This document shows, in pieces, positions 42,079 through 45,835 of a stretch of 64,000 nucleotides of DNA. Source of the stretch: Halomonas cerina (lineage in GTDB: Bacteria > Pseudomonadota > Gammaproteobacteria > Pseudomonadales > Halomonadaceae); contig NZ_JACHXP010000015.1 in assembly GCF_014192215.1 (NCBI RefSeq), positions 1 to 64,000 on the forward strand, in the 5' to 3' direction. Numbering within the stretch: the stretch's first letter is position 1; each line of letters begins with the position of its first letter. Position numbers and translations under genes: made by a program. Under the pieces are notes generated by a model. It saw only the letters and a list, made by a program, of their open reading frames with translations, was not told where the DNA came from and made no database searches.

Positions 42079-44811
<2,733 letters not shown>

Positions 44812-44812
44812 G

Positions 44813-44887
44813 ACGCATCCAGTAACTGCGTGTGGCATGCGGCCGCCGGACGCGGCCGCGCTCGAGTATCCGGGTCACGCCACACGC
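44813..44887 (-). promoter_or_regulatory. RNA structure linking the upstream ORF's last codons to the secA leader
   Basis: In the mRNA, the arm 44876-44887 (last Pro base, Arg, Val, Ala codons and the first two bases of the stop) pairs with 44828-44839 in a 12-bp stem containing one G-U pair. Inside it is an 8-bp GCGGCCGC hairpin (44852-44859 with 44839-44846, 5-base loop; it shares base 44839 with the outer stem). An alternative 5-bp hairpin (44827-44831 with 44813-44817) has the weak secA GGA in its loop and excludes the outer stem. A ribosome halted on the two prolines would cover the first arm. Confidence 0.7.
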
Positions 44888-45249
44888 GGCGGGCCGCGTC
44901 GCGTCAGCACGTCCTGAGCCGCCACGGCGCGCCGCAAGGGGGCCGAGAGACGGCGTGGCTCGAGACCATGTTGCCCGACGCGCGGCACGCGGCGGTGATC
45001 CCGGCGCAGGGCGCACCGCCGCGCCCGAAGGTGCGTACGCGCACGAATCAACGCCGGTGCCAGGATGCAGATCTGGGCGAGACGCTCGGCGGGACGCAGG
45101 TGCTCGACCTGGGCCAGTCCTGCCGGCAGCAGACAGCCGACCAGCAGACCCGCCCACCACCAGCGGGCCGGACGGCGCTCCGGCGGCCGGCGCTCGCCCC
45201 GTGAAGGCGCCACGGCTGGCGAACGGATATCGGCGGTGAGGGTCGGCAT
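44875..45249 (-). CDS. Small secreted ORF upstream of secA; candidate SecM-like arrest peptide
   Basis: A 124-aa ORF with no homologue that I recognise. The start is ATG 45249 (MPTLTADIRSPAVAPS), with GGGAG rather far upstream. Residues 1-30 are rich in Arg and Pro, then WWWAGLLVGCLLPAGLA (about 30-46) forms a signal-peptide-like core with a possible cleavage after GLA; LVGC also fits a lipobox. The rest is Arg-rich. It ends in Thr-Arg-Arg-Gly-Pro-Pro-Arg-Val-Ala-stop, like the C-terminal RAGP of E. coli SecM and the RAPP-type arrest motifs. The codons are strongly G/C-ending, as in neighbouring genes. It lies 63 bases before secA on the same strand. Arrest function is inference. Confidence 0.6.
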   Translation of the reverse strand: MPTLTADIRSPAVAPSRGERRPPERRPARWWWAGLLVGCLLPAGLAQVEHLRPAERLAQICILAPALIRARTHLRARRCALRRDHRRVPRVGQHGLEPRRLSAPLRRAVAAQDVLTRRGPPRVA

Positions 45250-45373
45250 GGCTGTCGAGGAACTCCCGTTACGTGCTAGGCTTTCGCGGTTCTTCCTTGG
45301 TGATGCCTGGCCGTCGTGGTGAAATGTGTCCCACGGCAGGCGACACCCGGGGCCCTCCCCGAGAATCAAGCTG

Positions 45374-45835
45374 ATGAGTATAAAGGTTAAGCGGTTCCGC
45401 GCACAGCCCATGTCCCGCCTCCTGGAGGGCCGGGGCGAGCTAGGGCCCCTGATGCGCACGGCGAACCTGATCGAGACGGCACAACGCCACCTGCGTGATC
45501 ACCTGCCCGAGGAGATGCGCGCGCATGTCTTCGTGGGCGGTTACCGCCAGGGACGCCTGACATTGATCACCGACCGGGCCGTCTGGCTGACTTGGCTCCG
45601 TTACGAGCAGCCACGCCTTCTGGCCGTGCTGCATGAACTGTCGGGCTTCGAGGCGGTCGCGTCCTTCACCCTGAAGGTTCGCCCGGTGCGCCCACCCACT
45701 CCCCCCTTGCGGCAGACACGCCACCTCCCGGCCCGGGCAGCCGACGAACTCTCGAGCTGCGCCGCCGAGGTGGACGACCCGCGCCTCCGGCGCGCCCTGG
45801 AACGCCTCGCCTCACACGCCGAACGCGAGCCGTAA
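45374..45835 (+). CDS. dciA: Replicative helicase loader DciA (DUF721)
   Basis: A 153-aa DUF721 protein, the ancestral bacterial loader of DnaB helicase. The N-terminal KH-like domain (about residues 1-105) shows LIETAQRHLRDHLPEEMRAHV and RLTLITDRAVWLTWLRYEQP in parts; the C-terminal tail is disordered and basic/acidic. ATG 45374 gives MSIKVKRFRAQPMSRLLEG. It is divergent from the secA-side ORF and convergent with lpxC, as in Pseudomonas, and ends at a strong bidirectional terminator. Confidence 0.88.
   Translation: MSIKVKRFRAQPMSRLLEGRGELGPLMRTANLIETAQRHLRDHLPEEMRAHVFVGGYRQGRLTLITDRAVWLTWLRYEQPRLLAVLHELSGFEAVASFTLKVRPVRPPTPPLRQTRHLPARAADELSSCAAEVDDPRLRRALERLASHAEREP

Follow-up and report, generated by a model that had tools for sequence, protein, structure and literature searches.

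The 124-codon open reading frame (uORF) directly upstream of secA in Halomonas cerina very probably encodes a protein that jams its own ribosome at an Arg-Gly-Pro-Pro sequence, sensing export capacity and switching on secA. We put the probability that it is a Sec-monitoring arrest peptide of the RAPP-like (RQH) class, with stalling at RGPP, opening of an RNA helix, raised secA expression and release by export, at about 0.88. Coordinates below are those of the window (i.e., the whole 64,000-nucleotide stretch that was analysed), and all features of the locus lie on its minus strand.

The uORF (45249..44875) starts with ATG, stops with TGA and encodes 124 residues (MPTLTADIRSPAVAPSRGERRPPERRPARWWWAGLLVGCLLPAGLAQVEHLRPAERLAQICILAPALIRARTHLRARRCALRRDHRRVPRVGQHGLEPRRLSAPLRRAVAAQDVLTRRGPPRVA) that end in ...DVLTRRGPPRVA-stop. 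The predicted target gene, secA (42079..44811, 910 aa), begins at 44811 after a gap of 63 nt, and a putative Shine-Dalgarno sequence of the uORF, GGGAG at 45263..45267, can be read from the sequence 13 nt before the ATG. The N-terminus is Arg-rich and leads into a hydrophobic core (residues 29–46, RWWWAGLLVGCLLPAGLA; 45112..45165), and close to the other end an arrest block (residues 113–121, DVLTRRGPP; 44887..44913) closes with R118-G119-P120-P121, leaving three more residues before the stop. The first-pass annotation had thus read the frame, its strand, its distance from secA, its signal-like N-terminus and its terminal motif correctly. By position and by that annotation's reading, the divergent gene starting near 45374 is taken as dciA. 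Neither an intrinsic terminator nor a sigma-70 consensus promoter was found in 44700–45500; a minus-strand TATACT box within 45360–45400, which overlaps the beginning of the divergent gene, is a candidate promoter for a peptide-secA operon. The leader matches no known RNA family above threshold.

A protein-level search found relatives of the uORF in 133 of 151 Halomonadaceae genomes, representing 20 of the 24 genera; they share at most 65% identity with it and nearly all lie in open frames. Scanning named genomes gave 166 relatives, 80 of which were kept as named loci (in Halomonas, Billgrantia, Vreelandella, Chromohalobacter, Litchfieldella and Onishia), and secA lies close downstream in every one of the 80. 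As a guard against circularity, a profile was made from N-terminal parts alone, stopping eight residues short of the motif. It retrieved 77 homologues, and each of them has R-G/A-P-P close to its C-terminal end (RGPP in 76, RAPP in 1), as do all 80 named loci (79 RGPP and 1 RAPP). Across 139 distinct loci the motif is written with all six Arg codons, all four Gly codons and, at each Pro, all four Pro codons, the residues after RGPP vary freely, and the tail beyond the motif is variable, with a length of 1–16 residues. An invariant motif combined with synonymous codon variation and a variable tail fits a stall site rather than a structural C-terminus. As judged by these comparisons, the uORF is a real, conserved gene and its RGPP is not a product of chance. 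The first-pass annotation had proposed an alignment across the Halomonadaceae, and the alignment indeed has R-G-P-P near the stop, a variable middle and a conserved signal sequence. In one genome (G071, locus L139) the frame of the arrest peptide reaches secA without a stop codon (...DVLSRRGPPAVFAPPLD...EHAMLNSMLRKMVGSKND), such that a ribosome passing RGPP would yield a peptide-SecA fusion; in its relatives the stop is present and an in-frame gap of 84 nt comes after it, and a sequencing error in this single genome is possible.

The signal-like part is itself strongly conserved. Within the core WWLAGLLVGCLLP, residues L35, L36, C39, L40 and P42 are invariant among 22 diverse members, and to judge from this alignment the core is kept far beyond the needs of a signal peptide. 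An AxA-like signal peptidase I site follows just after the core in 95 of 136 homologues. Cys39 (codon 39, 45133–45135) stands in the sequence L-V-G-C and is invariant in all aligned homologues; L-V-G-C resembles a lipobox, yet more hydrophobic residues and the signal-peptidase-I-like site come after it. Cys39 and the predicted P-site residue lie 77–84 residues apart in 139 of 139 homologues (sd 1.64), with a mean pairwise identity of only 46% in the intervening segment; the shorter N-terminal part varies more in length (sd 3.56, a value that changes with the choice of start codon). A second conserved block (residues 52–78, 45016..45096; consensus RxxERxVQICxLAPAxIRAxSRRxAR) is kept except in a divergent clade (L037, L039 and L175), where it is replaced. 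Members of this clade retain the signal core, the spacing and RGPP, so the second block appears dispensable for the basic layout. An apparent compensation between sub-lengths of the spacer (correlation −0.73) was set aside, because the middle anchor was sometimes misplaced by the pattern used to find it.

These features are those of a described class. RAPP-like "RQH" arrest peptides, including groups encoded upstream of secA, were reported by Fujiwara et al. 2024 (PMC10987492). The class is recognised by a small ORF with no assigned function, directly upstream of secA, secDF or yidC on the same strand, an N-terminal secretion signal or membrane segment, a spacer of more than 30 residues from signal to motif, and a conserved (R/Q/H)(A/G/D)(P/G/S)(P/G) sequence near the C-terminus; the uORF occupies the first of these positions, its hydrophobic core and AxA-like site supply the second element, its spacer from Cys39 is well over the required length, and its motif recurs throughout both homologue sets. 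At RAPP-type motifs, Pro-tRNA enters the A site and peptide-bond formation is blocked (PMC10951233), the third motif residue was in the P site in the toeprints of all tested RQH peptides (PMC10987492), and among RAPP-like motifs RGPP reportedly combines the greatest strength with the greatest tolerance of context (PMC12992588). By analogy with the tested peptides, the stalled ribosome is predicted to hold codon P120 (44890..44892) in its P site, where R118-G119-P120 would block peptide-bond formation with Pro-tRNA at codon 121; the first-pass annotation had placed the stall on the second Pro codon, which in this class is instead the A-site codon (PMC10987492).

The RNA downstream of this codon can pair with the region preceding secA. 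An 11-nt stretch that opens with the last base of the second Pro codon (44887–44877, P+5 to P+15, counted from the first nucleotide of the P120 codon) is complementary to 44838–44828, placing the 3′ arm of an 11-bp helix 17–27 nt before the secA start (−27 to −17). The helix is indicated both by the predicted fold and by the swap comparison described below, and it encloses a second, GC-rich 8-bp hairpin (44839..44859) that still forms with the 5′ arm removed. A ribosome with P120 in its P site would cover the entire 5′ arm, which lies inside the expected footprint. A Shine-Dalgarno-like TGGA stands at −10 to −7 of secA (44818..44821), and most relatives have GGA at about the same spacing. The arms of relatives differ in sequence yet remain complementary, as in CGTGTGG/CCACACG, GGGTGC/GCACCC, CTGCGTGG/CCACACGCAG and CGTGTTC/GAACACG. 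Duplex energies were calculated over a grid of positions, with no fold assumed, for each genome's own two segments and for segments swapped with GC-matched genomes. The own-versus-swapped signal peaks sharply where P+5..P+20 meets −30..−5 of secA (−2.31 kcal/mol, t −7.5), fades to little or nothing when the segment is moved upstream or downstream, and almost vanishes for targets in the secA coding region. It should be noted that the t values on the grid are inflated by relatedness and that the dereplicated tests are those to rely on: own pairing was recovered with 40 representatives below 65% identity (permutation p ∼1e-4) and with 23 representatives below 55% identity (p 0.0014). Pairing between P+5..P+20 and the secA region is thus well supported by comparison among genomes, and the co-varying arms are supporting evidence for a putative SecM-style unmasking of secA.

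How far the helix would mask secA is a separate matter, and here masking is weakly predicted by the folding model. The predicted probability that the Shine-Dalgarno sequence is unpaired rises, as a family mean, from 0.438 with the own arm to 0.473 with a foreign arm and 0.493 once the arm is deleted; for the window itself no rise is predicted (0.68 to 0.61). The whole leader in the window is not more stable than its shuffled counterparts (z −1.04), and pairing is weak in some relatives (e.g., L013, L181 and L204).

Taken together, the expected course of events is as follows. The nascent chain would carry its N-terminal signal sequence out of the ribosome and stop at codon 120, as the tested relatives suggest; the ribosome halted over P+5 to P+15 would melt the 11-bp helix adjoining the secA ribosome-binding site, and secA translation would go up. 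With export active, the translocon would pull on the signal-bearing chain, freeing the ribosome, letting the helix re-form and bringing secA down. Release by pulling and the induction of secA are drawn from SecM, whose arrest gives way when the nascent chain is pulled (PMC10951299). Because each required part is present in the Halomonas gene, we infer that the same logic is the best explanation.

By sequence, the peptide is nonetheless independent of SecM. The SecM profile PF06558 matched neither the Halomonas genome nor 18 relatives while matching the E. coli control, which rules out SecM membership and agrees with the first-pass annotation, where an independent or highly diverged sensor had been proposed. 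The two share a position before secA, a signal sequence, R-x-x-P near the C-terminus and, as predicted here, a helix spanning the stall footprint and the secA initiation region; the Halomonas peptide differs in its lack of homology, in having RGPP rather than RAGP, in its near-fixed spacer and in the absence of FxxxxWIxxxxGI, the full arrest sequence FxxxxWIxxxxGIRAGP being missing from the uORF protein. ApdA and ApdP have the RAPP motif and are proposed to share the chemistry by which the peptidyl-transferase centre is blocked (PMC10951233), but belong to actinobacteria and alphaproteobacteria and are not the peptides found upstream of secA in Halomonadaceae. In Alteromonas naphthalenivorans, uDF_RQH_Enterobacterales likewise has RGPP, and its stalled ribosome has been shown to open a stem over the downstream Shine-Dalgarno sequence; its target, however, is secDF2, and RQH groups are not reported to resemble each other in overall sequence.

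GTDB places the Halomonadaceae within the Pseudomonadales. In a sample of this order comprising 114 genomes with secA from ∼47 families, with the upstream region readable for most, a RAPP-like uORF before secA was seen only in Halomonadaceae. The published group uA_RQH_Pseudomonadales is encoded upstream of secA, has R109GPP and stalls E. coli and B. subtilis ribosomes (fAP > 0.9; PMC10987492); it resembles the present family in its position, its N-terminal localization signal, its C-terminal RGPP and its order, and several Halomonas homologues, such as that of Halomonas cupida (L197), have Arg at exactly position 109. From R109GPP and the lack of other candidates in the sampled order, the published group is, with high probability, the Halomonadaceae family, and the Halomonas peptide probably belongs to the very group already tested. 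It is therefore not the new type of arrest peptide that the first-pass annotation took it for, but very probably a true gene for an arrest peptide of the SecM-like kind, with a sequence independent of SecM, in a class known since 2024. The main text of that study describes no RNA structure for uA_RQH_Pseudomonadales (PMC10987492); what the present analysis adds is the co-variation of the RNA arms, a spacer of nearly fixed length and conservation of the peptide across the family.

Other explanations have to be weighed against Sec monitoring, against which we count the near-fixed spacer, the modest change in accessibility, the unexceptional stability of the leader and the weak pairing in some relatives. 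Sec-monitoring arrest peptides typically have spacers of variable length, whereas that of the YidC-monitoring MifM is narrow. It is thus conceivable, if unlikely, that the near-fixed ∼80-residue spacer from the near-invariant core to the stall site makes the peptide a length-tuned sensor of one defined stage of translocation (or of YidC or lipoprotein processing), and not, in the manner of SecM, a monitor of Sec pulling in general whose spacer is free to vary. Slightly less likely again is that arrest is released by a narrower step, either insertion of the hydrophobic segment by YidC/SRP or processing as a lipoprotein at Cys39. The MifM-like constancy of the spacer, the invariance of C39 and P42 and the lipobox-like L-V-G-C would suit such a step, but shared ancestry can also give narrow spacing, divergent members have no lipobox (LFGC, LLSC and LVTC), the core is followed by a signal-peptidase-I-like site in most homologues, and the downstream gene is secA at every locus examined.

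The peptide could also be an ordinary small secreted protein with RGPP as part of a functional C-terminus and no stalling, which we consider improbable. Of the proteins with RAPP-like motifs that have been tested from E. coli and B. subtilis, most did not stall, and the conserved block at 52–78 suggests a role for the protein itself. Against this, RGPP is invariant while its distance from the C-terminus varies, as suits a stall site, the co-varying RNA arms begin right behind it, and the position upstream of secA is shared with peptides of the same architecture that have been confirmed experimentally. The caution that the motif might have arisen by chance, in an Arg/Pro-rich frame that is no gene but GC-rich intergenic DNA, can be dispelled. 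Given the composition of this ORF, R[AG]PP would occur within the last ∼25 residues with a probability of ∼1%, so that RGPP alone could be luck, and among 22 members the peptide has no Pfam or NCBIfam family beyond weak, scattered matches. Conservation removes this doubt: protein-level conservation over 20 genera, synonymous variation at the invariant motif and the recurrence of the motif in both homologue sets refute a chance origin, to which we assign next to no weight.

Members of the family that have no arrest peptide (L033, L034, L035, L041, L042, L044 and L045) have, immediately upstream of secA, a gene for an M23 peptidase; the genera concerned are g3, g5 and g24, and among eight genomes tested an orthologue of this peptidase was found only in those without the peptide. 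In this small sample, arrest peptide and M23 peptidase seem to be alternatives at the site upstream of secA. Derivation of the peptide from the M23 peptidase gene was considered and rejected, the N-termini being unlike. With its 139 distinct homologous loci, invariant motif, spacer rule and co-varying arms, the peptide can be argued from sequence, and for a whole bacterial family, to be a secA arrest peptide that has no sequence relationship to SecM; the protein family it represents, for which no Pfam or NCBIfam entry was found, is missed by annotation pipelines. It offers a good system in which to ask how independent arrest peptides converge on the logic of RNA unmasking and whether spacer length matters in force sensing.
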